Virus record (IMG/VR): IMGVR_UViG_3300010885_061525
Span: 1 to 64,000 of that record
Direction: 5' to 3' (one strand)
From: a virus
DNA: 64,000 nt
Every line of letters begins with the position of its first letter. Positions within the stretch are counted from its first letter, which is position 1. Both the position numbers and the translations under genes were made by a program. This document shows, one piece after another, positions 1 through 58,100 of the stretch. Under the pieces are notes generated by a model, which had not been told where the DNA came from, made no database searches, and saw nothing but the letters and a program-made list of their open reading frames with translations.

Positions 1-873
1 ACGCTCACGATGGGAGGCACGAGCGGTGGCACGACTGCGCTTAGGAATGCCGAAACTAAGCTAGGTGTTACGACAGCGCAAATAACGACGAACGGCGGAA
101 CAACTAACGCTCTTCAGCTTGGTCCGTATGGTAATTTGAATTTAGTTCCAACGACTACTGCTGCCAGTGCTGGTGGTACTAATACTTCATTAATTATCAC
201 CAACGCAAACGACGGCGTTGGTACTGTCACAGTGGCAGGTGGTGATCTTGTATTAGGCACGAAGATGACTGATGAATTTACAACATCAGCCGTTAAACTA
301 ATTTTCGAAGGTGCTACAGACAATGCTTTCGATACCACGCTCACGGTAACAGATCCTACCGCCAACAGAACCATTACGCTTCCTAATCTCACAGGTACGG
401 TGGCTCTTACAACTGATCTGTCTCAATTTGCAGCCACATCATCAGCACAACTTGCTACACTAATTAGTGATGAAACTGGTTCTGGAGCATTAGTATTTGC
501 AACTTCGCCCACACTTGTCACACCGACTCTAGGAGCGGCAGCAGCCACATCCGTAACATCTGATGCATACATACTGTCTTCAAGCGGAATACAAGCAAAG
601 ACCGCTAGTTATACTTTAGTTGCAGGAGACAACGGTAAAATCATAACAATGAATGTGGCATCAGCAAACACGCTTACAGTTCCTGCGTCATTAGCCGTAG
701 GATTCAACTGCACCGTTATTCAACTTGGTGCAGGTCAAACTACTGTTACGGCATCGGGTACTACTCTAAACTCCTATCAGGGCTACTTAAAAATAAGTGG
801 GCAGCATGGATCAGCAAGCATCGTGAGTTACACATCTAATGTCTACAATGTTGCAGGAAGTCTAAGTGCATGA
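1..873 (+). CDS. Tail-fibre-like virion protein, 5' end outside window
   Basis: The frame is open from the first base, so the gene almost certainly starts left of the window; the first ATG inside it is at 10. The product is rich in Thr, Ala, Gly and Ser and low in charge. Around residues 95-135 it has a stretch of the type FEGATDNAFDTTLTVTDPT followed by ANRTITLPNLTGTVALT, wording that recurs in tail-fibre and appendage proteins of marine phages. The C-terminal part (TASYTLVAGDNGKIITMN onward) resembles a beta-rich domain found at the ends of such fibres. It probably sits on the virion surface and may contact the host. The stop overlaps the next start (ATGA at 870). Family resemblance is from memory; the exact role is inferred. 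Confidence 0.6.
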   Translation, partial: TLTMGGTSGGTTALRNAETKLGVTTAQITTNGGTTNALQLGPYGNLNLVPTTTAASAGGTNTSLIITNANDGVGTVTVAGGDLVLGTKMTDEFTTSAVKLIFEGATDNAFDTTLTVTDPTANRTITLPNLTGTVALTTDLSQFAATSSAQLATLISDETGSGALVFATSPTLVTPTLGAAAATSVTSDAYILSSSGIQAKTASYTLVAGDNGKIITMNVASANTLTVPASLAVGFNCTVIQLGAGQTTVTASGTTLNSYQGYLKISGQHGSASIVSYTSNVYNVAGSLSA

Positions 874-1470: not shown

Positions 1471-2214
1471 ATGAAACTACATAATTACATTAAATCGTTA
1501 TTTGTGTTCTCAGTGTGTCTGACTAGTATGGCTACGGCTCAAAACGACCCCACAGCTAAATTGAATCTTACGCTGGTTGCCCCACAACAAGCTGTGACAA
1601 TAGATGATATCATTGAGGTACAACTCATGGTATCGGCAGAAAGCAACCCACAGCGTTTTGTGGTGGCTGATGTCCCCTTTGGGTGGGACAACACCAAGCT
1701 CCAGCTGTTGGGAGTGTCATTGGTTGGCTCTCACGTCGGGGTGATGGCAGGATATTCCACCTTTCCTACAAACGATTATACTTTATGTAATGAAGTAGTG
1801 CCACCCCAAGACGGTAACGGAATGTTTTACTGCTATGGAGTATTGGGTTACGAATGGATTGTAACCACCGAACCCGCACAGATGTGTAGATTCATATTCA
1901 AGGTGGTTGGGTTGGGTATATCAGAGGTTGTTCTGTATGAAAATCTACCCCTTAATCCACAATACCCGGCATCGTGTGTGGTATACGGCTGCTGCGTTGG
2001 GGGCAATGTTGTCACAGGATCGCTGACCAACGCCACCGTTGGACTTGCAGAGCAAGGTGATTTCAACAATGATGGATTGGTAAATGCTCAGGATATGGGT
2101 GAGCTTCTAGCAGACTGGGGAGCTGCTAGCTTTAAATACAATCCCCATGACATTAACGGAGATGGAATCGTCAACTCACAGGATCTAGCACTGCTAGTGA
2201 ATAATTGGAGTTGA
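1471..2214 (+). CDS. Secreted protein with cohesin-like domain and dockerin-type repeats
   Basis: I choose the ATG at 1471 because it begins a clear signal peptide (KLHNYIKSLFVFSVCLTSMA, cleavage likely near ATAQ); an in-frame TTG at 1450 would bury it. Residues about 30-190 resemble a cohesin-type beta domain (LNLTLVAPQQAVTIDDIIEV ... FGWDNTKLQLLGVSL). The C-terminus holds two calcium-binding dockerin type I loops, GDFNNDGLVNAQDMGELLAD and DINGDGIVNSQDLALLVNNW, each with Asp/Asn at the ligand positions. Eight or so Cys suggest disulfides. Such cohesin plus dockerin proteins are common in Planctomycetota. By eye it is less AT-rich than the replication genes, fitting recent acquisition from a host. 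Whether it decorates the cell, the virion or neither is unknown. Confidence 0.75.
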   Translation: MKLHNYIKSLFVFSVCLTSMATAQNDPTAKLNLTLVAPQQAVTIDDIIEVQLMVSAESNPQRFVVADVPFGWDNTKLQLLGVSLVGSHVGVMAGYSTFPTNDYTLCNEVVPPQDGNGMFYCYGVLGYEWIVTTEPAQMCRFIFKVVGLGISEVVLYENLPLNPQYPASCVVYGCCVGGNVVTGSLTNATVGLAEQGDFNNDGLVNAQDMGELLADWGAASFKYNPHDINGDGIVNSQDLALLVNNWS

Positions 2215-2807: not shown

Positions 2808-3332
2808 ATGGCAAAACCAAATTTCAAAATCTTGCCCGAAGACGAAGCTAAAAAGTTTATCTTTGAGCATATCAAAAAACGATTTACAAAAAACGGTCCT
2901 ATTATTGGTAAGCTTCCAAGGGACTATCGAGAAGATGCTTTGAATGAAATTTATATAGATCTATGGAATAATAGATTTAATTACAATCCAAGCTTAGCTG
3001 ATTTTACCACCTATGCCTATAATAGAGGTAGAGGAGTTATCAAGGCGATGCTCCAATCTTCTGGAAGAATAACAAGGATTAGAAAGAAGATATCAAAAGA
3101 AAATAGATGTAACTCCTTGGAAAAGACTGACACCTTTGAGGGCAAGGAGTTTTGTGATAGACTTCTTGGAGTTCTTACTGAAGAAGAGCGTAAAATAATG
3201 ACAATGAGATTTGTAGAGTCTGTCCATATTGAGGACATAGCTGAAAACCTAAACTTAAACCCTCAAAAGATATATTCTATAATTAGGGACGCTAAAATGA
3301 AGTGTATTAGAAGTAAATGGAATCAAAAATAA
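2808..3332 (+). CDS. RNA polymerase sigma factor, sigma-70 family
   Basis: The 174-residue product has the two domains of a minimal sigma factor. Residues about 40-100 match region 2 (YREDALNEIYIDLWNNRF, then FTTYAYNRGRGVIKAM and a basic RITRIRKKI), which binds core polymerase and the -10 element. Residues about 120-170 match region 4 (LTEEERKIMTMRFVESVHIE then an HTH with NLNPQKIYSIIRDAK). It should redirect host RNA polymerase to phage promoters, most likely those of the late genes. Start ATG 2808 follows the tRNA by two bases; the only purine-rich stretch upstream is GAGAG in the tRNA acceptor strand. It overlaps the next gene by 16 bases. Confidence 0.85.
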   Translation: MAKPNFKILPEDEAKKFIFEHIKKRFTKNGPIIGKLPRDYREDALNEIYIDLWNNRFNYNPSLADFTTYAYNRGRGVIKAMLQSSGRITRIRKKISKENRCNSLEKTDTFEGKEFCDRLLGVLTEEERKIMTMRFVESVHIEDIAENLNLNPQKIYSIIRDAKMKCIRSKWNQK

Positions 3333-9089: not shown

Positions 9090-9106
9090 CATGCTATAAT
9101 AGCATG
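9090..9106 (+). promoter_or_regulatory. Palindrome with embedded extended -10 box
   Basis: Bases 9090-9106 read as a perfect palindrome with 8-base arms (CATGCTAT, central A, ATAGCATG). Inside is TGCTATAAT (9092-9100), a perfect extended -10 element. Transcription would start around 9106-9107, right at the GTG start codon of the next gene, so the message might be leaderless. There is no good -35 box. The palindrome could also be a repressor site that covers the promoter. Confidence 0.4.
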
Positions 9107-10017
9107 TGAAAAAAGCAATAATCTACACAATCATTAATCCAAAACAGCCCGGCAGTCATCTGTCGGGCGGTTTTGCTGCTACAGACTCTCTTATTGAGGC
9201 TATTGAGTCCAATGGATTTACTGTCGATATAATAACACCAGTTGATAAATGGGTTGATCCAACCACTGCTGATCTTTGTATATATGTTGATATATTCAAC
9301 GACCCTGAAGGCAGTAATGGGTGGTTTGAAAAAGAGCATTACGGCAGCTTCTTGAAGGCAAAAAAATACATTGTTCTTGAGTGCGCTTATACTGGATGCA
9401 CTCCAACGCCCTACGGCCTAGGAGGTAGAGTTGATGGTGGCTCTTATGAACAAACGCAGCTATCTGAATATATGGCTCACCTGACTAAAGGATCTTCATT
9501 GAATATCTTTTTAAGCCCATTACATCGCTATGAATTTCAAAAATTCCTTGGGTGTACGATAGATAGAGTTTATGATTTCTTTCAGCCAATTGATATTGAG
9601 GTTTTTAACAATCAGAATAAAGAAAGAGATATTCCGTTTTTGTTTGTTGGAGCTTTAAATTGGTTTAAGGGCTTAGACAATGTGTTGGAAATTTTTGGTA
9701 ATAAGGGACTTCACGTGGTTGGTAGAAGAACTGACGTAGTGTCTGCTCTTCCTAACTCAGTAACCTATCTTGGAGAAAAAACTCCTAAAGAGTTGGCTGA
9801 AGTATACAATAGAACTAAAAGATTCATACATCTTCCAAGATGGCAAGAGCCTTCTGCAAGAACTGTAGTAGAGGCCGCTTTATGTGGATGCGATTTGATA
9901 GTTAACGAAAACGTTGGAGTTTTAAGCTTTGGATATGATATAAGAGATCCAAATCTTAGCGCTCTATCTAAGAGTCACATAAATAAAGTCTTAGGAGAAG
10001 TATTAAATGCTAACTAA
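9106..10017 (+). CDS. Glycosyltransferase, GT4-like
   Basis: The 303-residue product starts at GTG 9106 (next codons AAA AAA GCA). Its N-terminal half is a Rossmann-like domain (AIIYTIINPKQPGSHLSGG). The C-terminal half has the family features of retaining GT4 enzymes: FLFVGALNWFKGLDNVLEIF, then YLGEKTPKELAEVYN, and the donor-binding end PRWQEPSARTVVEAALCGCD containing the E-x7-E-like region. It should transfer a sugar from a nucleotide donor; acceptor unknown. The stop overlaps the methyltransferase at 10007, so sugar transfer and methylation are probably coupled. Confidence 0.75.
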   Translation: MKKAIIYTIINPKQPGSHLSGGFAATDSLIEAIESNGFTVDIITPVDKWVDPTTADLCIYVDIFNDPEGSNGWFEKEHYGSFLKAKKYIVLECAYTGCTPTPYGLGGRVDGGSYEQTQLSEYMAHLTKGSSLNIFLSPLHRYEFQKFLGCTIDRVYDFFQPIDIEVFNNQNKERDIPFLFVGALNWFKGLDNVLEIFGNKGLHVVGRRTDVVSALPNSVTYLGEKTPKELAEVYNRTKRFIHLPRWQEPSARTVVEAALCGCDLIVNENVGVLSFGYDIRDPNLSALSKSHINKVLGEVLNAN

Positions 10018-12119: not shown

Positions 12120-13235
12120 TTATCTTCGTCTTGAAGCGTTAGAGTTGGTGGTAGGGGTGGTTGAATTAGGCTTATAGTTGGCAGGAGGCATTCCTCCTGC
12201 AGGAAGAGTTCCGCCTCCGGGAGGGGTTCCTCCTCCGGGAGGGGTTCCTCCTCCGGGAGGATTTCCGTCCGGAGGAGTAGTGTCCTCGTCAGTAGAATTT
12301 CCTTCGTCAGTAGCATCACCGGTCGGAGTTCCGCATTGTAAATCTTTAACTTCACCTAGCAAAGTATCAATATAGCGGTCAGCGTCAATTCCTGCAGGCA
12401 ATATGCCTGCGGCGGTAATAACCCCTGCTAGAGCAGCGCGAGCAGCCGCTAAATCTACCAGTAGCGCTGCTCCTATAGTACCCCCACTAGCCGTATTAAT
12501 TGCTATGGCAGCTATTAGTGCGACTATCAATACTAAATAAGTAGAAATCTGATCAATAGTTTGCCAAGGCACGTTTGAAAATTTATTTCTTAAGTACAAG
12601 GTATATACAGCGGCGGAACTACAGAATTCTGCGCATGTCTTGGCTCCATTGTATAATCCATCTATTATTAGAGCTAGCGCTGCCATTGCAGCGCCAACTC
12701 CCTCTAAGCTCAGCTTCTGTCCTAGTGTAGCCCATTCGTCTTCAGTCAATAAATCCTCACCCACGTTAATCTTTAGAAGTTCAAGTATTTTCTCAGGATC
12801 ACAGCCCTGTCTATTCATCTCTGATAATATCTTCAATAACGAATTCAAAGCCTCGTCTATTCGTATCTTTTCATGTTTCCATAAAATATCTTTAAAATAT
12901 TGACGCATCCCGGGAATTTTTTCGCAACTTATGTTGATTATATGTTTTAAAGCCCCAGCAAGGTCTCCCGGACGCATAGGGATGTTACGACCGCTTTCAT
13001 AATCATGTATCAGCATGCGCTTCTCTTTCAATAAGCTCTCAAACAGATCAGCGCAACGTTTATTTGCTTTCCTCCATAGCACATAAAATAAAACAACTGC
13101 CGCACCGCCGTACCCCGCAATTAGCTGGACCCAAGGACTAGCCCACCAACTAGTGTCCTCTTGAATAACAATAGCGTTAATACTATTTATGAATCTTTGA
13201 GAAGCCAAGGAACGATTACTGTTATTAAATGCCAT
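12120..13235 (-). CDS. Leader-bearing membrane protein with Pro/Gly repeat tail
   Basis: The 371-residue protein has four parts: a 25-residue N-terminal leader (FNNSNRSLASQRFINSINA) shared with the next protein upstream; a first membrane helix (LIAGYGGAAVVLFYVLW, near residues 38-55); a soluble helical middle; and a hydrophobic pair of segments (YLVLIVALIAAIAINTAS and later AALAGVITAAGILPAG). The C-terminus is acidic then a GGGTPP repeat and a basic SRRR end. Two more Cys lie in the middle (AEFCSS) and tail (LQCG). It is a probable inner-membrane or virion-internal protein of unknown role. The body is unrelated in detail to its tandem partner although the plan is the same. Confidence 0.65.
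   Translation of the reverse strand: MAFNNSNRSLASQRFINSINAIVIQEDTSWWASPWVQLIAGYGGAAVVLFYVLWRKANKRCADLFESLLKEKRMLIHDYESGRNIPMRPGDLAGALKHIINISCEKIPGMRQYFKDILWKHEKIRIDEALNSLLKILSEMNRQGCDPEKILELLKINVGEDLLTEDEWATLGQKLSLEGVGAAMAALALIIDGLYNGAKTCAEFCSSAAVYTLYLRNKFSNVPWQTIDQISTYLVLIVALIAAIAINTASGGTIGAALLVDLAAARAALAGVITAAGILPAGIDADRYIDTLLGEVKDLQCGTPTGDATDEGNSTDEDTTPPDGNPPGGGTPPGGGTPPGGGTLPAGGMPPANYKPNSTTPTTNSNASRRR
12208..12261 (-). repeat. Three tandem 18-base units encoding GGGTPP
   Basis: Units at 12208-12225, 12226-12243 and 12244-12261 differ by single bases (forward-strand unit GTTCCTCCTCCGGGAGGG). On the reverse strand they encode successive GGGTPP hexapeptides in the flexible tail of the 371-residue membrane protein. 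Copy number probably varies by slippage between related phages. Confidence 0.85.
13161..13235 (-). repeat. Leader-coding DNA, copy 1 (pairs with 14240-14314)
   Basis: The first 25 codons of the 12120-13235 gene match those of the 13241-14314 gene with about five base differences in 75, nearly all silent, and the match continues a few bases past the ATG into the upstream side (ATTTATGG context). Similarity stops abruptly after the VIQ codons. Confidence 0.8.
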
Positions 13236-13240
13236 AAATA

Positions 13241-14314
13241 TTAACTCAACTTTCTATTAAAAATTTGTCTTGAAGCGTTAGAGTTGGTGGCAGGAGGGGC
13301 TTTCGGAGGAGGCATTCCTCCTCCAGGAGGAGTGTCATCTTCCTCTTCATCGGTGAAAATTGGCGCGCCTGCAGGAGGAGTGCCATCGTCACTAGTATCT
13401 ACGGCTCGACTTTCGCAACCTATATTGGCAGTTTGATCAAGCAAACTTTGAATAAATTCATCAGTGCTCATTCCATCAGGAACCATCTTGGCCGCCTCAA
13501 CCGCTGCAGAAAGTTGTCCTGTGGCCACAACTAAAAGTGCGGCTGCGCCTCCTACGGTGCCTATTACAGCGCCGGCTCTAACAAGTATATATAGCGCTGC
13601 GACTAATACAATAAGACCGGCAATAACCGATAGAATATCTATCGCAATATCTGGAAATATATTTTTCAAATAATTTGAGACCGCAGCTGCTCTGGAGCAT
13701 GCTCCAGAGCAGGTTTTTTGAAAGTCAAACCAGGCCTTGACCATCCAAGCGGCCAAACCAGCCACAGCAGCAGCTTCAGTCAAATTTTGTAACTTGTCAA
13801 GCTCCTTCCAATGCCCGGCGGGAACTCTATCCTTTGTCATGCTTTTAAGTCTATCAAGGATTTCCTTCATTGTACAACCTGCGTCCAAAGCTTGTTGTAT
13901 TACGTTTCCTACTCTGTTTACGAGGGACGCTCCCAGTTCCGGATTGGAGTAATTGCCAAACTCATCCAGTGGTCCCCTCAATTTATCCATATACTCACCA
14001 AGTCCCGTCCATGAAGTACATTTAATTAGTCGCATTTGCCCCGCCACAAAATTCAAAGCTTTGACCAATTTGTCAAGGGCTTTATCAGCATCTCCCTTCT
14101 TCGCCAAAATCTTGTTCAAAGCTTTGAGGCAGGGATCTTCCTGTCTCTGCCACAGCCGCCATGCAGCGCCTAATAATACAATTCCGGTCGTTAAGTTGGC
14201 TAGGCCCCACTCCCAACCATCCCAATCACCCCAATCCGGTTGAATAACAATAGCATTGATACTATTTATGAATCTTTGAGAAGCAAAGGAGCGATTGCTG
14301 TTATTAAATGCCAT
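13241..14314 (-). CDS. Leader-bearing membrane protein, paralogue of the 12120-13235 product
   Basis: The 357-residue product begins with the same leader as the downstream protein (one change, Leu to Phe, in 25 residues) and follows the same plan: a Trp-rich segment, a membrane helix (LTTGIVLLGAAWRLW), a helical domain with Cys at CTSWTG and CTMKEIL, two C-terminal hydrophobic segments (ILSVIAGLIVLVAALYIL and VGGAAALLVVATG), then an acidic and Pro-rich tail ending NSNASRQIF. The bodies share few identical residues, so the leader is conserved while the rest diverges. This is the promoter-proximal gene of the reverse operon; AGGTG lies upstream but rather far (11 bases) from the ATG. Confidence 0.65.
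   Translation of the reverse strand: MAFNNSNRSFASQRFINSINAIVIQPDWGDWDGWEWGLANLTTGIVLLGAAWRLWQRQEDPCLKALNKILAKKGDADKALDKLVKALNFVAGQMRLIKCTSWTGLGEYMDKLRGPLDEFGNYSNPELGASLVNRVGNVIQQALDAGCTMKEILDRLKSMTKDRVPAGHWKELDKLQNLTEAAAVAGLAAWMVKAWFDFQKTCSGACSRAAAVSNYLKNIFPDIAIDILSVIAGLIVLVAALYILVRAGAVIGTVGGAAALLVVATGQLSAAVEAAKMVPDGMSTDEFIQSLLDQTANIGCESRAVDTSDDGTPPAGAPIFTDEEEDDTPPGGGMPPPKAPPATNSNASRQIFNRKLS
14240..14314 (-). repeat. Leader-coding DNA, copy 2 (pairs with 13161-13235)
   Basis: This is the partner of the copy at 13161-13235. The sharp boundary between near-identical leader DNA and unrelated body DNA suggests copying or gene conversion of the leader alone. Confidence 0.8.
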
Positions 14315-14478: not shown

Positions 14479-15513
14479 ATGAAAATAGCCTTTATTAATA
14501 ACTTCTACAATTCGGGCGGTTCAACGCAAACTGCTTATGCTTTAGCTGCCGAACTTTGTTCAAATAATCAAATGAGTTTCTACGGGTTTTGGGATGGTCC
14601 ATACAGAGATAAATTCCAAAAATTGGGCAAGGCAAATCTTTTAAAGACTTCTAAAATTTGTGATGGCACATTGGAATTTGAGTACGGTGACGATTTAATC
14701 GAAATGCTAGAAAAAGAAGATCCTGATATTATCCATATATTTTTACCGGGTTTCCAAAACCCAAAATACCTCCCAAAACTTCCGCAGAAAGCAAAAAAGT
14801 TTGTAACTGTATTATGCGAACAGGAGATAATATTTGATCCAAATTTCTTTGATAAGGTCTTTTTTCAATCAAAACACCAAATTAAATTTTGTAAAAATCC
14901 AGAGAATTCTATATGTGTTAGGCCCAGCATAGAACTTGACTTTTCGGAAAAACCTCAAAGTAAAAACCCCGTATTAGCGAGGGTTTCAGCGTTCTGCTCA
15001 TCAAAATTAGTAGATCATACAATGCAATGCGCTTTTAACTCCATGAGTAGCAAATGGATAATAGCAGGGGAGATACAAAGCGTGGAGACGTATGACCAAA
15101 TAATGCGTATTAAAGAAAGCAATAAATTAACCAATGTTGGAATTGTGGCTAATATAAACGAAAGTTTAAAACGCAAAATTATAAGTAATTGTGATATATG
15201 GCATTATCCAACTTCAGGAGAGGTTTTCTGTTTTTCCATTCTTGAAGCTTTTGCGGCCAGAAAGCCTGTCTTATCGTATAAGAACGCAGCCATTCCTGAG
15301 TTGTTTGACTCCGATGAATGGTTGGCAGACGATATTGATGACCTAATAGAAAAAACGGGCCGCTTAATAAGAACTCATCCGTCTGAAAGAGATCTTATAG
15401 GAAAAAATAACTATGGGCTGTATCTTAAGAACTCCCAGCAAATATTCGCTAATAATATCCTTAGTGAATATAAAAAGGCCATGTCTCGAACCCAATCGGC
15501 TCAGTTGCTATAA
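14479..15513 (+). CDS. Glycosyltransferase, GT4-like
   Basis: The 344-residue product begins with a Rossmann strand (KIAFINNFYNSGGSTQTAYA), the usual opening of GT-B enzymes, followed by a DIIHIFLPGFQ acceptor-domain segment. The C-terminal domain carries WHYPTSGEVFCFSILEAFAA, then RKPVLSYKNAAIPELF, which is the nucleotide-sugar binding region of GT4 proteins with its E-x7-E-type spacing. Acceptor unknown. It is the first forward gene after the reverse island and ends ten bases before the ribonucleotide reductase, so it may share a transcript with it. Confidence 0.75.
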   Translation: MKIAFINNFYNSGGSTQTAYALAAELCSNNQMSFYGFWDGPYRDKFQKLGKANLLKTSKICDGTLEFEYGDDLIEMLEKEDPDIIHIFLPGFQNPKYLPKLPQKAKKFVTVLCEQEIIFDPNFFDKVFFQSKHQIKFCKNPENSICVRPSIELDFSEKPQSKNPVLARVSAFCSSKLVDHTMQCAFNSMSSKWIIAGEIQSVETYDQIMRIKESNKLTNVGIVANINESLKRKIISNCDIWHYPTSGEVFCFSILEAFAARKPVLSYKNAAIPELFDSDEWLADDIDDLIEKTGRLIRTHPSERDLIGKNNYGLYLKNSQQIFANNILSEYKKAMSRTQSAQLL

Positions 15514-26260: not shown

Positions 26261-27212
26261 CACCTATAGAGGCTGTGAATTTCAATTCTTCATGGAGCAA
26301 ATACTAGAGCTTCCATCAAAAAGTGGAAAAAAGGCTCTTCTCGGAACAATAGTTCACCATGTTCTTGAGCTTATGGCTAAAGGAAGCAAGACCAATAGAG
26401 ATTTTGGATTAATAGTAGATCATAATAAATTATTGGACATATGTTGGAATAGATACATAAAAGAAAATCCCGACATGGTAATGAAGCCTGCGGACAAGAA
26501 ATTTTGCCTTAAAACAATAGAAAAAGTCTTGGGAACTCAATATGACCCTAGAAAAATGAAAATACTGTTTACAGAAAAACAGTTCAAAATACCTCTATTG
26601 ATGGATGGTTTTAAATATGAGTATTATGATTTGGTTAAAGGCTCTATAGACAAAGGAAACTATGAGATACGAGGGACTATTGACTTAATTACAGAAGTCG
26701 ATAAAGATACTATAGAAATAGTTGATTGGAAAACAGGGTCTAGAAAATGTTGGAACAGCGGTGAAGTTAAAGAATATGAGTATCTCCAATCAAAAGATAT
26801 ACAGTTGAGAATGTATGATTTGGCATGCTCAATGATTTTTCCACAGTACAAAAATATTATACTGACCATTCATTTTATAAATGACGGAGGTCCATTTACT
26901 GTGAGCTTCGATAATAGTCAAAGAAAAGAAACCATAGATATAATTAAAAACTCGTTCAACGCCATCAAATGGAATCAGCTTCCTTCTAGAATCAAGGATA
27001 CCAAAGCTTCTGATAGATGGAAGTGCAAGAGTGTTTGCCATTTTGGTAAGACCCTTACTAATGCCGGCTGTAGTATCTGTGATACGATACATTCTTACGC
27101 TGTTGGAAACGGTATAGATAAAACCGTGTCGCAAATAAACGCTTTAAGAGCAGCTAAGGCTACAGAAAAAGCCAAATTGACCAGCAATCGTAGAAATACA
27201 TTTGAGGAATGA
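26226..27212 (+). CDS. RecB/Cas4-like PD-(D/E)XK nuclease with probable Fe-S cluster
   Basis: The 328-residue product shows the RecB-family nuclease order: LRASSINTYRGCEFQFF at the start (first Cys), GTIVHHVLELMAKG (His of the HxxxE motif), GTIDLIT and IEIVDWKTGSRKC (Asp and the DWKTG catalytic strand), then DIQLRMYDLACSM (the QxxxY motif). Near the end CKSVCHFG and GCSICD supply more Cys. A first Cys before the core and a cluster of Cys after it is how Cas4 and AddB bind a 4Fe-4S cluster. It likely trims DNA ends during recombination or replication. GAGGAAAA precedes the ATG. Confidence 0.8.
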   Translation: MNIKFLRASSINTYRGCEFQFFMEQILELPSKSGKKALLGTIVHHVLELMAKGSKTNRDFGLIVDHNKLLDICWNRYIKENPDMVMKPADKKFCLKTIEKVLGTQYDPRKMKILFTEKQFKIPLLMDGFKYEYYDLVKGSIDKGNYEIRGTIDLITEVDKDTIEIVDWKTGSRKCWNSGEVKEYEYLQSKDIQLRMYDLACSMIFPQYKNIILTIHFINDGGPFTVSFDNSQRKETIDIIKNSFNAIKWNQLPSRIKDTKASDRWKCKSVCHFGKTLTNAGCSICDTIHSYAVGNGIDKTVSQINALRAAKATEKAKLTSNRRNTFEE

Positions 27213-27213
27213 A

Positions 27214-29070
27214 ATGAACTATATACCGCTGCATGTACATACCGGATGGTCTCTATTAGATAGCACTCTCGATGTTGTCGAGTATGTAAATTTTATTAGT
27301 GAAAATGGCGGAAAAGCCTGCTCTATTACAGATCATAATAATATAAAGGCCCTAGTACCTTTTGCAAAAGCCTGCAAAAATAAAGGAATAAAGCCGATAA
27401 TTGGATGTGAACTAGACGTCTGGAATAATGACAGTTTTTTAGGTAGAATTACTCTAATAGCCAAAAACAAAACAGGATATAAAAATCTTGTTTCTATTGT
27501 TTCCATAGCAAGAAGTAAGAACCGAGTAGAATCTGACGGATATCCAAAGTCATTTTTAAATGAACTTCATCAGTATTCGGCTGGTCTTATTTGCCTTATT
27601 GGAGACTTGAGAAGTGAGATTTTCACTGAGTCATTCGTCAATCCCGAAATGGCATATAATTCAGACAGCGAAGAAGAGTGTAAGAAGCTACTACGGCATG
27701 ATTTTAAATCGTCTATAGACTTAGTCATCAAAAAGTATCGTAAGATTTTCAATGATGTATTTATATACTTTGACTATTCTAAACTCCCCTGTCTTAAGAT
27801 ACTAGGGTTGGCAATTAGGGATAATTTTCCGGAAGCTCTTCCGTCAAATAATATTCATTATCTTTCAAAATCAGACTACATCATTCATAAGTTAATTGTC
27901 AATGATGAAGACAGGCTGTCAAATCCAATAGATGATAAACGAATTTTTAATGAGGAATATACCTTTTCTCACATTTTAAAATCTCTTCCTGACGGGGAAA
28001 GGACTTTTAAACTGCTCGATTTAATTGAGAATTTTTCAATTGAAGAGAGGCCCATGATTCCAGATTTCAAGATTAAAGATCATATAATTTCAGATCAAGA
28101 TGAATATCTAAGGAATATCTGTAGAAAGGGATTCTCAGAAAAAATACTTCCAAGGATAGGGGAGTCTTCAGAGATTAAAGCGGTATATCTAGAAAGAATT
28201 AAACACGAGCTTTTTGTATTTAAACAAGCGAAAATATCAGGATATTTTTTGATTGTTAAAGACATAGTGGACTTCATTAAGTCTTTTGGTTATCCTGCAG
28301 ACAGCAGAGGATCTTCATCTGGATCGATTATCTCTTACTTAATTGGAGTGTCGTCTATTGATCCGATTCTTCCAGACCCTACTCTAACCTACTCTAAGGA
28401 AAGAGAGCTTTCGTTTGAAAGATTCTATAACGAAGGAAGAAACACAGCCAGTAATGTTTCATTGCCAGATATAGATATGGATCTACCACCTTCTATAAGA
28501 ACGGATGTTATTGATCACATTAGAAATAAGTATGGAAACGATTGCGTTGCCCATATTATAACCCATTCTAGATTTAAAGGAAAGGGCGCTATTAAAGAGG
28601 CCTTTAGAATACTTAAGCCTATTAGCAACTACTTTGACGTAGCTAACGAAATAACAAAATTATTTGCAGAAGAGTCTAAGATTTCTGATGAACTTAGCGA
28701 GATCCAAGAAGAAGATCCGTCATATGGAATTATCCGCTGGAACATTGATAATATTTCGGATGTAGCCAAACACTATGAAAAGTACAAAGAGGCTTTTGAC
28801 TTTGCTATTAGAATAGAAAAACTCCCTAAAAATGAAAGCGTTCATGCCGCAGGCATTATCATAAGCGATAAAATGCTTTCTAACCATTTTCCGATGACTT
28901 ATTCTCAAAAGCTAGACCAAATGATAATCGATGTAGAAGGGGCTGATATAGAAATGCTGGGAGGGGTAAAGTTTGACATTCTTGGGGTTTCAGCCCTAGA
29001 AAAAATATATCAAATAGAAAAAATGATAAATCGTAAATTAAATGAAGTTCAATTTGGAATCTTGACTTGA
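27214..29070 (+). CDS. dnaE: DNA polymerase III alpha, N-terminal fragment (PHP + palm)
   Basis: I start at ATG 27214 (GAGG upstream), not the in-frame TTG at 27202. The 618-residue product begins with the PHP domain (PLHVHTGWSLLDS, CSITDHNN, IIGCELDVW) and continues into the polymerase palm: GYPADSRGSSSGSIISYLIG, PDIDMDLPPSIRTDVIDHI (two catalytic Asp, about 418-422), VHAAGIIISD and GVKFDILGVSALEKIYQIEK (third Asp, about 588). It stops right after that helix. Everything from the following VFQLES region onward is in a second gene at 36380. No intein signature is seen. The two fragments must presumably associate to form an active enzyme. Confidence 0.9.
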   Translation: MNYIPLHVHTGWSLLDSTLDVVEYVNFISENGGKACSITDHNNIKALVPFAKACKNKGIKPIIGCELDVWNNDSFLGRITLIAKNKTGYKNLVSIVSIARSKNRVESDGYPKSFLNELHQYSAGLICLIGDLRSEIFTESFVNPEMAYNSDSEEECKKLLRHDFKSSIDLVIKKYRKIFNDVFIYFDYSKLPCLKILGLAIRDNFPEALPSNNIHYLSKSDYIIHKLIVNDEDRLSNPIDDKRIFNEEYTFSHILKSLPDGERTFKLLDLIENFSIEERPMIPDFKIKDHIISDQDEYLRNICRKGFSEKILPRIGESSEIKAVYLERIKHELFVFKQAKISGYFLIVKDIVDFIKSFGYPADSRGSSSGSIISYLIGVSSIDPILPDPTLTYSKERELSFERFYNEGRNTASNVSLPDIDMDLPPSIRTDVIDHIRNKYGNDCVAHIITHSRFKGKGAIKEAFRILKPISNYFDVANEITKLFAEESKISDELSEIQEEDPSYGIIRWNIDNISDVAKHYEKYKEAFDFAIRIEKLPKNESVHAAGIIISDKMLSNHFPMTYSQKLDQMIIDVEGADIEMLGGVKFDILGVSALEKIYQIEKMINRKLNEVQFGILT

Positions 29071-36379: not shown

Positions 36380-37900
36380 ATGAAGTTTGACGCATCAGAT
36401 ATATCCCTTAAAAATGATAAGACTTGGCGCTTAATCCAAAACGGCTATACTGTTGGAGTGTTCCAGCTCGAAAGCGATCTAGGTAAAAAATGGGCTGCAA
36501 CAATAAAGCCTACTAATATAAATGAACTTAGCGCCGTAATATCTCTTATTAGGCCAGCCTGTCTTGAAGCAGGTATGACTGAGATATACTCTAAAGTTAA
36601 AAACGGATTAGCTGAAAAGCCAGATTATAATGATGAGGCTGTTAATAACATATTATCTCCCACAATGGGGGTTTTGATATATCAAGAACAGTTGATGAAA
36701 TTTGGTGGGGAAATAGCATGGGGAGATATGCCGTATTTAGATAGACTTGTTATTGTTGATAAGTTAAGAAAAGGCATTGGTAAAAAAGATCAGAAAATAA
36801 TTATTGATCTTAAAGATAAATTCATTAATGGGTGTCTCAGAAATGGTCGATCTAAGGAAATAGCCGAACGGTTATTTGCCCTAATTGAAGGAGCTGGAAG
36901 ATACGCCTTTAATGACGCTCACGCTAAAAAATACGCTCTTTGGTCATACAAGACGGCGTATTTAAAAGCCAATTTCCCACTCGAGTTTTATTGCGTATAT
37001 CTTACATATAGCAAGGGTAAGCAAAAGCCTCGTGAAGAGATACAAGATCTCATCAACGAAGGAAGAATGCTTGAAATAGATATCCTTGCCCCTTCTATCG
37101 AAAAGTCACAGTCCGACTTTAGCATACAAAATAATAAAATCGTGTTTGGTCTATCGCATATAAAGCAAGTTGGAGATTCCGATTCTGCCGTAATTATGAA
37201 GTACCGACCGAGTAAGTTCACTGATTTTATCAGACTTCATTTTAATACAGAGGGGGAAAAGCTAAGATCTCTTGCGGTAGAAAGCCTAATAGGCTGCGGG
37301 GCTTGTGATGCTTATGGATTGTCTAGAGCCGCAATGATGAGCGTTTATCTAATGCTCAAAGAATTGACCCCTAAAGAAATAGAATTTATATTTGCAAACA
37401 CTCCAAGCGGAGCAGACACAAAAGAATTGATAGATGTCGTTTATAGGTGCGCTAATGAAAAGTCAATCAAAAAACGCAAAGATATAGTATCTTCCGAAGC
37501 TTCTTCAATAAATCTTTTGATAGACGATTCAATAATAATCAAAAGCTCATCAGAAAAAGATCTTATGGGTTTCTCCTTTAGCTACGATCATAACGTAAAT
37601 ACTGAAGACAATTGGTCTTGCAAAGAATGTTTTAACAGAGCAAAAAACAACAGAAATTTAACCGCTGTGTTTACAGCCAAAATAGATAAGATTAAAAAAA
37701 CAATCACTAAGAAAGGAAAAAACCCAGGTCAGGAAATGTGTCAAATTTCAATATCAGATAACACTGGATCTATAAGTGTTGTTTGTTTTCCTGAACAGTA
37801 TGGCAAGCATAAAAAGGAATTATACGAAGGATCTTATTGTACACTCAAGCTAAAAGGAGCCGGTTTCGGTTGGTCGATAGAAACGATCAAAATCAATTAA
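36380..37900 (+). CDS. dnaE: DNA polymerase III alpha, C-terminal fragment (fingers, HhH, OB)
   Basis: The 506-residue product starts with its own ATG exactly where the alpha chain resumes after the palm: ASDISLKNDKTWRLIQNG, TVGVFQLESDLGKKW, LSAVISLIRPACLEAGM, then the fingers region (GVLIYQEQLMKFGGEI and EGAGRYAFNDAHAKKYALWS). A helical part and a C-terminal OB domain (FTAKIDKIKKTITKKG, SISDNTGSISVVCFPEQYG) follow. No part seems lost relative to a single-chain DnaE. Stops precede the ATG in frame, so it is not a simple frameshift remnant. It must work with the 27214-29070 product. Confidence 0.9.
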   Translation: MKFDASDISLKNDKTWRLIQNGYTVGVFQLESDLGKKWAATIKPTNINELSAVISLIRPACLEAGMTEIYSKVKNGLAEKPDYNDEAVNNILSPTMGVLIYQEQLMKFGGEIAWGDMPYLDRLVIVDKLRKGIGKKDQKIIIDLKDKFINGCLRNGRSKEIAERLFALIEGAGRYAFNDAHAKKYALWSYKTAYLKANFPLEFYCVYLTYSKGKQKPREEIQDLINEGRMLEIDILAPSIEKSQSDFSIQNNKIVFGLSHIKQVGDSDSAVIMKYRPSKFTDFIRLHFNTEGEKLRSLAVESLIGCGACDAYGLSRAAMMSVYLMLKELTPKEIEFIFANTPSGADTKELIDVVYRCANEKSIKKRKDIVSSEASSINLLIDDSIIIKSSSEKDLMGFSFSYDHNVNTEDNWSCKECFNRAKNNRNLTAVFTAKIDKIKKTITKKGKNPGQEMCQISISDNTGSISVVCFPEQYGKHKKELYEGSYCTLKLKGAGFGWSIETIKIN

Positions 37901-38361: not shown

Positions 38362-38555
38362 TGTCTAATAAATACTTAACAGAATTTCTCTCATTCTTAG
38401 ATAAGGAGGGGCTTTTAAAAAGGCCCCTCTCTTTTAATGAGATAATCGATAAATTTCAAAACAAAGCTACTGCTAGCACAAACATAAAGGCGCCAACAGG
38501 ATATGCAGGATTCACAACAGGAAAATCGGAAAAAAAGAGTACTTCTGGTAACTGA
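38361..38555 (+). CDS. Unknown 64-residue protein containing a hairpin
   Basis: It starts at a TAATG overlap with the SSB gene. The product (SNKYLTEFLSFLDKEGLLKR...) has a helical start and a polar tail with no known motif. The codons for KEGLLKRPLSF fold as a strong terminator-like hairpin at 38406-38429. The frame may be a real gene with built-in attenuation, or an incidental frame over a terminator; the overlap start favours a gene. Confidence 0.4.
   Translation: MSNKYLTEFLSFLDKEGLLKRPLSFNEIIDKFQNKATASTNIKAPTGYAGFTTGKSEKKSTSGN
38406..38435 (+). terminator. Intrinsic-terminator-like hairpin after ssb
   Basis: GAGGGGC (38406-38412) pairs with GCCCCTC (38423-38429), extended inward by three or four T-A/T-G pairs, and is followed by TCTTTT. 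It lies 45 bases past the SSB stop, at the boundary between replication genes and the glycosyltransferase block, inside the small ORF at 38361-38555. Confidence 0.6.
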
Positions 38556-40185
38556 ATTTAGTCAATTAAATACCGGGTTCTCAGTAATGGCTAATGATAT
38601 TCTCATCGCCATGCATAATAGCGGTAAGTACGAAGTAGCGGAATTGGCTTCCTACTTAGAGGACGGTTCCCCAAGGATCAATTCTGTTCCTTGGAAGGTC
38701 TATCCTGTAATACCGTCAGACCCAAAAGAGAATCAAGAATACCAGCAAAACTATAGAACATCTCAATTTGGAAGTCACAGATTTGATAAGGCTGTTATAG
38801 ATTTCAAACCTGATGTCGTATTTTCATACCGAGATTTTTGGCATGATGAATGGATAACAAAATCGGCATCAAGATATCTTTTTAATTACGTCTGGTCTGC
38901 TTGTATAGATTCTGAACCTCCAAAAGTTGATTGGATGGGAATATATTCAACAGTAGATAGAATGACCTCATACACAGATTGGGGAATGTCCGTTCTAAAG
39001 AAATACTCTGGACGGCAGCTCAAAATGGCCGACACCAACACTATGCCAGGTGTAGATCAAAATGTCTTCAAGCCAATTAAAAAGAGTGATGCTAGACATT
39101 CATTAGGAATCAAAGATGACATCAATGTAGTATTAACAGTGATGAGAAATCAACCAAGAAAGCTTTTTCCTGATCTTATGTTTGCGTTTTCTAAAACATT
39201 AGAAACGTGGAACGACCTTGGTCGAACTGATCTAGTAGATAATACATATCTGTACTTACATACCAGTTATCCAGATGTTGGTTTTGATATTGGAAAAGAC
39301 ATATTAAAGTATAAGCTGTCTTCAAAGGTTTTGATGACGTATTGTTGTAATCATTGCCATGCGTATTTTGCCTCGTTTTTCAACGGGGAAATTTGCGCAT
39401 GCAATAATTGCGGAAACTTCACCGCCCATCCCCCAAACACAGCCATGGGTCTTACAAGAGAGCAGTTGGCTGTAGTATATAATACCGCCGATCTTTACGC
39501 TCAACTAAGCATTGCCGGCGCTCTAGAGATTCCATTGATAGAAGCTAAGGCTTGCGGAATTCCTACAATAGCCACCGACTACGCTGCTATGCATGAAATA
39601 AACTCTCTTGGAGGATCGTATGGAAGCATCAAAGTTTCAGCGTGGAGAGAGGAGTCAGATAAGGAGACAGGTCAAATCAGAGCAATGCCTGATCCAATTG
39701 ACTGCTCTAAAAAGATCGCTGATTTCTTCATGGAGTCAAAATCCTTTAAAGAACAACTTTCAATTGATGCATTAAATACAGTCAAGCGACATCATTCTAA
39801 CGAAGAGACGTATAATAAATGGGACAAAATATTCGATTCAATGCCCTTTCTACCTGATGATAGATGGTATAAAAAACCAAATGTGATCGATACGAGCAAG
39901 ATAGACTTGAACATCGCTTATAATGATGAAGATTTTATCAATTATTTAGTTTTTAATTTTACCCCTCCAAAGGCTGCGCTAAGAGCTTTTGCTGCAAGAA
40001 AAGAGTTGTCTGCAGCCCTAAAGACTAAGATTAAAACGGAAAATAATGCAGCTAGAAAATTGAATAGGTCTGATATAGTAACAGCTGTAGTACAAACTGC
40101 TCATCAGTTTAATGCTTTTGAGCAATTCAGATACGGCGTGGTTAACAAGATTAAAAACAAAATTGATATGGTGGAGGTGGTATGA
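38503..40185 (+). CDS. Large glycosyltransferase with inserted zinc ribbon
   Basis: The 560-residue product is GT-B-like: KKRVLLVTEFSQLNTGFSVM at the start, FKPDVVFSYRDFWHDEWI, and a C-terminal donor domain with LAVVYNTADLYAQLSIAGA, then LEIPLIEAKACGIPTIATDY. Between the two halves, about residues 280-305, lies a Cys-rich insertion, CCNHCHAYFASFF then CACNNCGNF, expected to bind zinc. That is unusual inside a glycosyltransferase. The final 100 residues are helical and basic. It begins inside the 38361 gene and ends overlapping the next glycosyltransferase. Confidence 0.7.
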   Translation: MQDSQQENRKKRVLLVTEFSQLNTGFSVMANDILIAMHNSGKYEVAELASYLEDGSPRINSVPWKVYPVIPSDPKENQEYQQNYRTSQFGSHRFDKAVIDFKPDVVFSYRDFWHDEWITKSASRYLFNYVWSACIDSEPPKVDWMGIYSTVDRMTSYTDWGMSVLKKYSGRQLKMADTNTMPGVDQNVFKPIKKSDARHSLGIKDDINVVLTVMRNQPRKLFPDLMFAFSKTLETWNDLGRTDLVDNTYLYLHTSYPDVGFDIGKDILKYKLSSKVLMTYCCNHCHAYFASFFNGEICACNNCGNFTAHPPNTAMGLTREQLAVVYNTADLYAQLSIAGALEIPLIEAKACGIPTIATDYAAMHEINSLGGSYGSIKVSAWREESDKETGQIRAMPDPIDCSKKIADFFMESKSFKEQLSIDALNTVKRHHSNEETYNKWDKIFDSMPFLPDDRWYKKPNVIDTSKIDLNIAYNDEDFINYLVFNFTPPKAALRAFAARKELSAALKTKIKTENNAARKLNRSDIVTAVVQTAHQFNAFEQFRYGVVNKIKNKIDMVEVV

Positions 40186-41282
40186 AAAAAATAGCTTATA
40201 TATCAGTATATAGAGATGGAACTGGCTACGGAAATGCTGCAATATCGATGATCAAAGCTATCGATAAGGCCGGTATAGATATTGTCCCAATTTGGCTAAG
40301 CCTGAACATGTTCCCATTAAAAAATACAGAGAGAATTTCCGAGCTAGAGAAGGGGAGTTTGGATGGAGTGTCTACGGTAATCCAACAATCTCTTCCTGAC
40401 ACGTTTGTTAGGATAGAAGGGGTAAAGAATATAGGATATTTCTTTTGGGAAACTGATAGCTTCGTAGGATCTGGTTGGAAAAGCGGGTGTGAGTTAATGG
40501 ATGAGATTTGGGTTACTACTGAAGAGCAGAAGGAGGCATGCGTTGCCTCTGGAGTCGATCCATTAAAAATACGCATTGTAGATCAACCTAAAGAGCTAAC
40601 GAAATCAGAACACAAGTTTGACTTCAAAAAGTATGGATTAGAAAATACTTTCAAATTTTATACTATATCTGATTATTCAAACAAGAAAAATATTAATGGG
40701 CTGATGCATAGTTTCCTAACCGAATTTTCGATATATGACAACGTCTCTTTAACAATTAAAGCTTATATAAGTTCAAGACCTCCAATTGAAAGTAAAAATC
40801 ATATTAAATCAACTATTCAAGAACTTAAAAAACAGATAGGAAAGCCTGATCATGTATATCCAAAAATTGCTATCATAACTGATATGCTGTCTGAAAATGA
40901 TTTATCGGGATTGGAAAACTCTTGCGACTGCTTTGTTTCTTCATCTCGCGGTGAAGGGGAAGGTCTTCCTATGGTTCAATCAGCATTAAAGGGGAAGCCA
41001 GTAATAGCTTCATGCATATCTGGAATTTCCAAAAATTTTAAAAACAAGGGACTGTTAATCAAAAACCTAATTAAAAAGAAGGTTTTCGGAATGAATAGCG
41101 GAGCATACTACAACTACAACGAAAATTGGCTAGACCCATCTACTACAGATATAGCTGATAAAATGCGCTATGTCCTAGAAAATCCAAACGAAGTACAAGA
41201 GATAGTCAAAGAGAATAAAGAGTATATAGAAGAGAACTTCTCAATAGAAGCCTGCGCAAAGAAACTGGCGGAAATACTATGA
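40182..41282 (+). CDS. Glycosyltransferase, GT4-like
   Basis: The 366-residue product has KKIAYISVYRDGTGYGNAAI as GT-B opening, KNIGYFFWETDSFVGSGWK and MDEIWVTTEEQKEACVASG in the acceptor domain, and ENSCDCFVSSSRGEGEGLPM then VQSALKGKPVIASCISG in the donor domain. The WETD phrase is typical of GT4 enzymes from phage and bacterial glycan clusters. It is the second of four glycosyltransferases in a row, with ATGA overlaps on both sides. Sugar and acceptor unknown. Confidence 0.78.
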   Translation: MKKIAYISVYRDGTGYGNAAISMIKAIDKAGIDIVPIWLSLNMFPLKNTERISELEKGSLDGVSTVIQQSLPDTFVRIEGVKNIGYFFWETDSFVGSGWKSGCELMDEIWVTTEEQKEACVASGVDPLKIRIVDQPKELTKSEHKFDFKKYGLENTFKFYTISDYSNKKNINGLMHSFLTEFSIYDNVSLTIKAYISSRPPIESKNHIKSTIQELKKQIGKPDHVYPKIAIITDMLSENDLSGLENSCDCFVSSSRGEGEGLPMVQSALKGKPVIASCISGISKNFKNKGLLIKNLIKKKVFGMNSGAYYNYNENWLDPSTTDIADKMRYVLENPNEVQEIVKENKEYIEENFSIEACAKKLAEIL

Positions 41283-42298
41283 ATCCTATTAGTTATATAA
41301 GCAATAAAATAAACAGAGTTAAAAAAGATAAATATAAAATCTTGACTTTTTCTACGCATGAAGCGTATCAAGAGGCCATGGCTAAAACCGGGCATCATTT
41401 CTACCTTCTTCAGACTGAAGGCTGCAAACAATGGAATGAGGATTTTAGAAAACTCCCAAGTAATTGCACTATTATTAATAATATAGAACATATACCGTAT
41501 GATATAGATTTTCTACTATCACAAGAGAGATACTCACAGCTGCAGAAAATGAGCGGATTATCTAATCATATTAGACTTCCATTGATACATTTAGACCATG
41601 TCGAACCCGTAAAAAACGAATCGTTTCCCGCGCTAAAAGCACTCAAAGCTGACTTCAACGTCTTTATAACAGAGCATAATAAGGAAAGCTGGGAAAATAC
41701 TGATGGAGTTGTTATATCTCATGGTATTAATACTGATACATTTTCGGGTTGGATTCCTAATACGTCTAAAACAGTTGTCTATATAGTCAATTACCTCAAA
41801 GAGAGAGATTTTTTCTGCGGATGGAAGGAGTGGGAATACATTAAAAATAAAGTAAACGCAATAGATCCTACGATAAAGTTTAAGTTGATAGGAGACAATC
41901 CTGGAATAAGTAAGACTATATCTGATCCAAAAGAGCTTGCTCTTGAATTAAAAAAATGCGCCTGTTATATCAACACGTCTAAATTCTCCCCTGTTCCAAT
42001 GTCTCTTCTTGAAGCTATGTCGTGCGGTATGCCGATAGTATCTACTAAACATCAACAAGTGGCTAAGCTTTTAAATGAGTCGAATTCAATATCATCTAAT
42101 GATTTAGATCAATTAGCAGATGGGATCGTTAATGTATGCAATAACAACAAACTTTATAAGAGCATTGGTGTTAATGCTAGAAATGAAATATTGAACAAGT
42201 TTTCAATGGAATCGTTTATGAATAACTGGAACGACATTTTCGATAAAGCCTATAATAAAAGACTTGGTGAATTAAATGAAATATTTTATAACAAATAA
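41279..42298 (+). CDS. Glycosyltransferase, GT4-like
   Basis: The 339-residue product shows IPYDIDFLLSQERYSQLQKM, RLPLIHLDHVEPV in the N-terminal domain and, in the donor domain, KKCACYINTSKFSPVPMSLL followed by EAMSCGMPIVSTKHQQVAKL, the classic GT4 end with conserved Glu. It overlaps the preceding gene by four bases and the next by 23. Part of the four-gene glycosyltransferase run. Confidence 0.75.
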   Translation: MNPISYISNKINRVKKDKYKILTFSTHEAYQEAMAKTGHHFYLLQTEGCKQWNEDFRKLPSNCTIINNIEHIPYDIDFLLSQERYSQLQKMSGLSNHIRLPLIHLDHVEPVKNESFPALKALKADFNVFITEHNKESWENTDGVVISHGINTDTFSGWIPNTSKTVVYIVNYLKERDFFCGWKEWEYIKNKVNAIDPTIKFKLIGDNPGISKTISDPKELALELKKCACYINTSKFSPVPMSLLEAMSCGMPIVSTKHQQVAKLLNESNSISSNDLDQLADGIVNVCNNNKLYKSIGVNARNEILNKFSMESFMNNWNDIFDKAYNKRLGELNEIFYNK

Positions 42299-55111: not shown

Positions 55112-58100
55112 TTACAATCCTGGAAGAGGTATATTGCTAGCCTGGAATACCTCTCTGAGTTTTCCAATAACATTATCAAAAACCTTATCTCCAACGGTTC
55201 TCATTGACTCCTCTACCTTAGTAAGATCAAACGTAACGCTTATATCTTTGACTCCGCTTATTACTACATTTATCTGTTTTGGTATAGCGCTAATAGCAGC
55301 TGTTAGACTGCTTACTTGATCATTCATTATGCTTAAGTTTGCAGAAGTGGATTTGTCCATTTGCATTCTAGCCGATTGTATTTCCGTAGCTATTTTTTGA
55401 GCGTCTTGTATGAGCTTGTTTGCTTGATCTACAGTTGATTTTATGTCTGTTGTTTTAACATCAATTCCTAAGGCTTGGAATTCTGGTCTGCTGGCTAAGG
55501 CCGCCTGTATAGCCGCAGCCAATTGCTCTCCACTTAAACCTGATTGTGTTAGCGTGTTAGCACCGATCTGTCTTGAAAAATCCATCAACTCAGTTAGTTG
55601 CTTTGTGCTTAGACCTGCAATTTGATTTTCTACAAGTCTAGCAACATTTTGGTTTGTTAGAATTGTATTTACGCCTTGATCCTTGGCGTTTGGAATGGCT
55701 CTTGTTATTGCCGCAGCTATATCATTGGCATTTCCTGCGGCTCTTGAAAGAGTCATTTTATTCATTGAATTATCAGCAGGAGTTCCTCCATATAACTTTC
55801 CAATAAGTGATTCTAACGTCGCCTTTTGTTCTGACAGCTTCTTGGATGTTATGTCTACTTGACTTCCGACTAATTTAAACTGAGACTCCAACACCTCTAA
55901 TGAATTTATTAAACCTCTCTCAATCGAGCTTCTTAAATTCATTAAACGGCCGCTAAGCTCGAATACGTTATCGCTTATATTAAAACTAGAATCTAAAGCA
56001 GCAAGTTGGCTCATTAGATCCTTTATGTATGGAAGCTCAAGAATGTTACTAGGAGCATTATTTGGCATTGATGGATCTGCTGTCAGCGCCCTTTGAGCTT
56101 CTATACTTGTTTGTAATTGTTTGATAATAGAAAGCTCGGAACCTGCCTTACTAGGATCCCTAGTTGATATTGCTGCTGTTAACTCTGAGAGCGGATTAGC
56201 GGTCGTTGACTCAGGCGCTCTTGGCAGCTCAACTGCTCGCGCTGCTGTCGGAGGGACTTTTGGAAGTTTCTCGTCTGCTAATAGTTTACCTTGTGCGGCG
56301 AGATTAGTATTATCACTTTCTTTAATTGCATCAGAGACATTCGGACCAAGGGAGTTATGGCCTCTACTTTTATCTTTTCTGCTCTGCTGTATCACCTTCT
56401 GCATTATTACTCTTGCTTTATCTAACCGAGACTCTCTATCTTCCGACAACCCCCGCTGTTCTGCAGTATTAGGTAGCTGAGCTTGTAAACCATAAGGCAA
56501 TCTCTCTTCTACAGCTGGAAATTTATATGTTTGGTTAGACCTGAGCACGTCCCCAGGTTGCTGTGCCGCAGTACTAGGTTCCTGAATTGATAAATCATCA
56601 GATTGACCTCTAGTTTTTGCGTCTTTCACTTCCAATATCACTCGGTCCATTTTCGCTCTTGCGTCATCTAACCGAGACTCTCTATCTTTCGACAACCCCC
56701 GCTGTTCTGCAGTATTAGGTAGCTGAAGTTCTAAATTAGGACTTAGTTTGGCGTCTAATTTTAATCTCCTATAAGTCTTAGGTGGATCATCAGATTTACC
56801 TCTATTTTTATCGTTTGATGGTGATCGTTTGTCGTTAGTAGTAGTTGCATTTGAACTATTTACTACAGCTGACCCACTTTCAGTTTCTATATTTGTTTGT
56901 AATAGTCCAGCGGCAGTGGTCTTATTACCTATTATATTAGAGTTTGGTATATTTTGACGCTGGCTTAAGGCCTGTGTCTGAATATCTAAGGAAGCTTGAG
57001 CCGCCCCTCTTTGAGTTTTTAGACCAAGGGCGCCTTGAAAACCCTCTATAGTTGAGCGGTTGTCTGCAATAGCTTTGGCTAATTCAACTTGAGATTTATA
57101 TGACTCTTGTTCAGCCGCAGCCCTTGCTTCTATTGTTTTTGCCTGTAATTCATATGCGTTATTTGCTAATGTTATTAAGGCGTTTGCTTGAGCGATTTGG
57201 GCGGAACCAGCTTCGTCAACTCCTAAAAGTTTACTAGAATTAAACCCTCCGGTATTTTTATCTTGCAATGCCTTTCCTAATGCCTCTAGACTAAATGGTA
57301 ACTTTCCTTGTGATCCTGATTTTTGAATAATATCAAATAATTTTTGTCCTGCGCTACCCAATCCCTTCAGATCGCCGAGCCTATCGTCTATGACTGCTCT
57401 CACGTCTTTTGCTGACTGAAATGTAGTTCCACTCGTAACCGATCCGCTTTTTGCTGCGGCCGCATCTTCTTCTTGAGTGGCCCTAGCTTGAAGCCCTCCA
57501 ATCGCTTTTAAGCTTTCCGGCTCTAAATTAAGAAGTAAATTATTTTGAACATTCTTATCCGCTTGGCTGAATTGAATAAAAACTTCGTTGAGTGTGTTTT
57601 TTAATGACTGTATTTCAGGACTGTTTACTCTTTGAGCTTTTTGTCCAGTGATTGCTTCGATAGCGTTAGAAGCTGCTGCTACATTTCTATCGGTAGGATC
57701 TGTATTTATCTGCTGAATTGATCCAACCTTGAATGGAGAAGACAATATACCTTTAGTTGTTTCTAATTGAGTTGATAGTCTTTGAGTTTCTGAAACAAGA
57801 ACGCCTATTAAGGATGTTTGGCTTTTTATTGATGATGAAAGAGCGTTACTGAATACGTTTAATGAACGCTCCGCAGCATCTGATATTTCCGCTAATGATT
57901 TAAATGTAAACTTAAATCTAGTTATAGACGCAGTAAATACATCAGCCCCTTCTTCTACTGCTGTAAACTCGTCACGTAAAGACTTGAATATTTTTTCCTC
58001 ATCAAATTTAACTCCCTCAACAGTAAGTTTTTCGGCTAAAACTTTAGCGGTTTTCTCAGCAGCAGCTGTTCTTGTCTCAACATTATCTTGGCTCTCAGGT

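Follow-up and report, generated by a model that had tools for sequence, protein, structure and literature searches.

Why does a phage carry a gene for a secreted protein assembled from cohesin- and dockerin-type parts, and where did that gene come from? The question is raised by IMGVR_UViG_3300010885_061525, an IMG/VR virus contig of 90,574 bp, of which we analyzed positions 1 to 64,000 (the window). An earlier note on this DNA had recognized a signal peptide, a cohesin-like domain, two dockerin calcium loops and a lowered AT content in the gene, and had taken it for a captured gene, of a kind rare in phages, from a Planctomycetota-like host. We find instead a family of phage genes under selection and on the move among unrelated phages, and we consider it about an even bet that its product is an exported, dockerin-anchored surface-remodelling protein encoded by an accessory ("moron"-like) gene.

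The features of the gene are collected in Table 1. Relatives align from the ATG at 1471 and not from the in-frame TTG at 1450. From the N to the C terminus, the product consists of a signal peptide, a divergent cohesin-like domain and a dockerin. Although the signal sequence varies, its hydrophobic core and an A-x-A-Q-like site are retained (judged by eye) across nearly all relatives. Window-type copies also share five invariant cysteines (106, 121, 169, 174 and 175) that are absent from cellular copies in the alignment.

Table 1. Features of the dockerin gene (window coordinates) and two genes of another carrier (coordinates of stretches L083 and L124)
Feature	Position	Strand	Description
Cohesin-like/dockerin secreted protein gene	1471..2214	+	247 aa plus stop; uninterrupted frame, relatives in 24 virus contigs, purifying selection, codon usage
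Signal peptide	1471..1539	+	Residues 1-23; cleavage after residue 23, between ATA and Q; predicted by eye from sequence
Divergent cohesin-like domain	1555..2043	+	Residues about 29-191; profile and fold matches are cohesins
Type I dockerin	2056..2211	+	Residues 196-247; PF00404, PDB dockerin matches with family profile, model pLDDT
Dockerin calcium loop 1	2059..2094	+	DFNNDGLVNAQD, residues 197-208, then LLADWG; ligand positions invariant in 11 relatives
Dockerin calcium loop 2	2149..2184	+	DINGDGIVNSQD, residues 227-238, then LLVNNWS; ligand positions invariant in 11 relatives
Dockerin-tailed subtilase	L083:12663-14114	-	Subtilase 142.5 bits; dockerin-like tail 14.0, under cut-off
Further PEP-CTERM-like protein	L124:3340-3849	+	Same myovirus contig as L083

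The C-terminal part is a type I dockerin: PF00404 matched residues 196-244 with 27.8 bits (Pfam cut-off 22.9), and both calcium loops hold the full D-x-N-x-D-G-x-x-x-x-x-D set of a two-loop dockerin. A family profile retrieved dockerins from the PDB at E 2.3e-6, and this part of a structure model reached pLDDT 71-86. The score for the GC-type dockerin NF041540 (16.5 bits) fell below its curated cut-off of 29. The N-terminal domain is more divergent. The window protein itself gave no match to Pfam Cohesin (PF00963), and weak matches appeared in 3 of 24 family members (best E 0.0012). All six PDB matches of the family profile to this domain up to E=10 were cohesins, the best at 0.027. A model built on an initial alignment of little depth was too poor to use (pLDDT 43); with the later model, itself poor (pLDDT 53), the 22 top Foldseek matches were all cohesin entries (best E 1.6e-4, TM about 0.3). 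Several weak tests thus agree, and we call the domain cohesin-like. The domain reading of the earlier note holds, with an N-terminal domain that is divergent and probably cohesin-like. From the predicted signal peptide and the dockerin we infer export and anchoring of the protein; the dockerin may bind a host cohesin in a calcium-dependent manner.

The gene stands out in composition as the earlier note had described. Its GC content is 0.460 against a gene mean of 0.380 (z 2.5) and its GC3 0.452 against 0.314 (z 3.3); among 50 window genes it has the highest GC3 and, in the codon-usage comparison that the note had proposed, the most atypical usage. Such values would suit a recently captured host gene carried as a passenger with no phage function. 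The gene is, however, under strong purifying selection: pairwise dN is 0.01-0.21, and dS is about 1 to saturated for distant pairs and low for close pairs only. A promoter scan of the window gave matches at chance level only, and a terminator-like hairpin was seen by eye 5' of the gene in two other carriers (L021 and L025).

Contigs encoding close relatives of the window protein numbered 11 and 13 in two scans of IMG/VR, and their full-length copies were 77-92% identical to it. Once cellular relatives had been included in the query, a copy at 39% identity (L083) came up, and a scan seeded with L083, L214 and L215 brought the family to 24 further IMG/VR contigs in all. Some contigs are near-identical (L019/L020/L026, L022/L023 and L016/L024/L027), so that the 25 contigs, the window included, represent about 20 distinct phages. 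Among them are T7-type podoviruses, phages bearing ribonucleotide reductase (RNR) and a 102-kb myovirus: L020 has T7-type head-tail adaptor and capsid genes, in L022 the gene lies next to and before a T7-type RNA polymerase, the window phage has replication and RNR genes, and the L083 contig encodes a sheath, a large terminase and a baseplate. GenBank phages yielded no full-length relative and a single weak dockerin-only match, and no relative was found in PLSDB plasmids. A limited search of full-text literature under PMC open licences found no phage-borne cohesin-dockerin family.

The gene moves between phages on its own, as a one-gene cassette, and enters unrelated positions. In DNA comparisons of the window with most other carriers, it was the sole or nearly sole common stretch. 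Between L002 and L007, dS was 0.195 for the dockerin gene and 1.9 for the ribonucleotide reductase gene that both contigs also carry. The gene is placed 3' of tail-fibre genes in the window and L017-L020, and after RNR in L016, L021 and L229. In the related phages L016 and L021 it lies on opposite sides of a nuclease gene. At the post-RNR locus, L016 has a window-type copy and L214 one about 35% identical to that of the window, so divergent alleles share one place. A mobile single gene found at varied positions in unrelated phages is what is expected of a moron or accessory gene.

These positions bear on two other roles. As a virion decoration or adhesin, a particle-borne protein would stick to the host cohesin network; its place 3' of tail-fibre genes in the window and L017-L020 would suit this, as would a Gly-rich, fibre-like protein with three dockerin-like segments (L216:8766-10166, + strand) on a 126-kb virus contig with a terminase match. 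We regard this role as improbable, given the predicted signal peptide and the early or replication genes that adjoin the gene in other phages. A role in lysis, in which envelope fragments would be cross-linked or coated as a decoy or in aggregation, is conceivable in that the cohesin-like and dockerin parts of one protein could in principle form chains; no conserved lysis-type small membrane protein was found in the neighbourhood, and we hold this role to be very improbable. Selection, mobility among unrelated phages and a position independent of any functional module favour a host-directed accessory role over a part of the virion.

Two candidate associations were discarded. A lysis-gene neighbourhood was rejected because a small membrane protein does not consistently adjoin the gene. 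Co-travel with a tail-fibre tip was rejected too: the tip domain at window 550-870 (+ strand) occurs in 54 virus contigs, with 82-90% identity in the five best matches, and of the stretches examined L151 alone, which belongs to the contig of L018, also carries the dockerin gene. One family member (L234:1953-2603, + strand) is flanked by large genes that by eye resemble primase/helicase and DNA polymerase genes.

To which cellular proteins is the family related? Our cellular searches covered sampled Planctomycetota and, outside the phylum, consisted of two whole-collection scans. The first of these used the phage alignment as query and recovered no cellular relative. When 84,980 species were scanned with a DNA pattern made of the first dockerin loop and the LLADWG-type tail, the only matches were 11 sites in two Planctomycetota metagenome-assembled genomes (MAGs), one of them named Phycisphaerales. 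In the class of the latter, 154 of 298 genomes matched the protein, mostly through the dockerin, and in some the match spanned the full length at 32-36% identity; two Planctomycetota genomes gave 129 and 92 dockerin matches. With a profile of the N-terminal domain, matches came from 24 of the 301 genomes taken from one order, against 2 of 392 spread across the phylum (thresholds 1e-5 and 1e-6). Full-length homologues, secreted proteins about 32-38% identical to the phage protein (L049, L050, L084 and L087-L098), occur in Phycisphaerae-class genomes; they share the order signal peptide, N-domain, dockerin and lack the five cysteines of the window-type group. Some cellular relatives carry a dockerin at the C terminus and others a PEP-CTERM-like tail, which suggests that these tags might be interchangeable surface-sorting signals.

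A tree of 59 proteins placed the 19 phage copies in one clade (100/100) on a long stem, apart from all 40 cellular copies. The nearest cellular group was the mainly dockerin-bearing one, with modest support for the join (84/49). A separate clade on a long stem points to an old capture followed by passage between phages. The simplest reading of the tree would be a single ancient acquisition or a single pool of exchange; an unsampled host family may lie closer to the phage clade. Together with purifying selection and the presence of the gene in about 20 distinct phages, the tree contradicts recent capture, and we find a functionless passenger hardly credible.

The attribution of the domain pair and its wording to Planctomycetota, made in the earlier note, is upheld by these searches, and its picture of a captured gene rare in phages gives way to a family with a clade of its own. 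The note had also named best matches in another phylum or in a wide phage family as outcomes at odds with its view; the second was what we found, and the pointer to Planctomycetota is kept. As to the host, the kinship of the gene and its tags indirectly suggests Planctomycetota, whereas a search for CRISPR-spacer-like matches between 20 kb of the window and the 301 genomes of the order returned only short matches at chance level.

The genes beside the family in other carriers were also considered. By sequence pattern, five dockerin carriers (L021, L025, L214, L215 and L233) encode a barrel-like exported protein with a C-terminal Phe, and three (L083, L229 and L231) have a PEP-CTERM-like protein beside the gene, a call that is sub-threshold (14.4 bits versus 20.7). 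L083 encodes in addition a subtilase with a dockerin-like tail (Table 1). Such exported, envelope-type neighbours count for surface remodelling, as does the preservation of signal peptide and intact dockerin in nearly all relatives. Two observations count against it: the signal peptide is absent from one family member (L234), and the window contig has no barrel-like, PEP-CTERM-like or dockerin-tailed subtilase neighbour. We suggest, as a tentative possibility, that unrelated Planctomycetota phages share a mobile "surface kit" that would rewire the cohesin-dockerin envelope network of the host through the host's own sorting tags, its putative members being the cohesin-dockerin protein, a dockerin-tailed protease, a PEP-CTERM-like protein and an outer-membrane-barrel-like protein.

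A host structure on which the phage dockerin might act has been proposed. Freshwater Phycisphaerae are proposed to have an extracellular cohesin-dockerin complex, the "planctosome" (PMC6461901), which would offer a plausible docking site; the suggestion of the earlier note that the protein might bind a host cell-surface cohesin network fits this hypothesis. The planctosome is also the basis of the main rival to surface remodelling, in which the protein would serve as a minimal adaptor of the host complex, held to the anchor by its dockerin and putatively binding dockerin-tagged peptidases through its cohesin-like domain, and would thereby increase the breakdown of polymers and the supply of nutrients to the infected cell. 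Its domain pair fits the planctosome adaptor proposed as signal peptide plus dockerin plus cohesin (PMC6461901), and one phage of the family encodes a dockerin-tailed subtilase. That protease, however, occurs in one contig only, and small T7-type phages, which seem less likely to profit from a slow nutritional gain, carry the gene as well. We therefore consider such a metabolic helper unlikely. The likeness to the adaptor, from Nemodlikiaceae, is one of general domain make-up: signal peptide, dockerin and cohesin stand in one secreted freshwater Phycisphaerae protein, but the window protein is phage-encoded, has 247 aa and no HYR domain, and bears its cohesin-like part N-terminal to the dockerin. 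Cellulosomal type I dockerin and cohesin proteins provide another comparison. The window dockerin is likewise above the Pfam cut-off and the fold matches are of cohesin type, but the window protein has no catalytic or cellulose-binding module and its cohesin part stays under sequence cut-offs.

For the surface-remodelling protein, we propose the following course of events. The gene would have been acquired long ago from a Phycisphaerae-type Planctomycetota surface protein and then exchanged between phages that infect such hosts. In an infected cell, the host Sec system would export the product and remove its signal peptide. The calcium-loaded dockerin would dock onto a putative cohesin belonging to the envelope network of the host, and the cohesin-like domain would thereby be displayed on the infected cell. 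A surface masked or remodelled in this way might block adsorption of other phages. Small exported phage proteins such as T5 Llp can block receptors (PMC9586334), and by analogy the window protein may be a small exported accessory protein acting at the envelope; Llp, in contrast, is a lipoprotein bound to FhuA without sequence kinship to it. Among specific effects we rank superinfection exclusion, a Llp-like effect, as the likeliest, though taken by itself it seems to us rather doubtful.

Few phages of Planctomycetota have been characterised, and the role of the many dockerin proteins in this phylum is obscure; a phage-owned cohesin-dockerin family offers a way into both problems. In metagenomic data it may flag candidate phages of these hosts, and its existence suggests that a phage can profit from hijacking the dockerin network as a surface system. 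A second family of virus-borne proteins, all of them small (L204, L206, L211 and L213; L211 is identical to part of L204), combines a Planctomycetota-type dockerin with a different N-terminal domain, its members being 33-37% mutually identical.

Several other features of the window were noted. Close 3' of the dockerin gene lie a tRNA-Arg (TCT; 2731-2806, + strand) and then a sigma-factor-like gene (2808-3332). Opposite-strand genes of 371 and 357 aa (12120-14314, - strand; GC 0.44-0.46) have no Pfam or PHROG match, and an open frame of more than 2,950 aa without a Pfam match (55112-64000, - strand) extends past the window edge. DNA polymerase III alpha is encoded in two genes about 7 kb apart (27202-29070 and 36380-37900, + strand); the junction falls before the finger domain, and by eye there is no obvious intein at the ends. 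Several glycosyltransferase-type genes are present at 9106-10017, 14479-15513 and 38503-42298 (+ strand).
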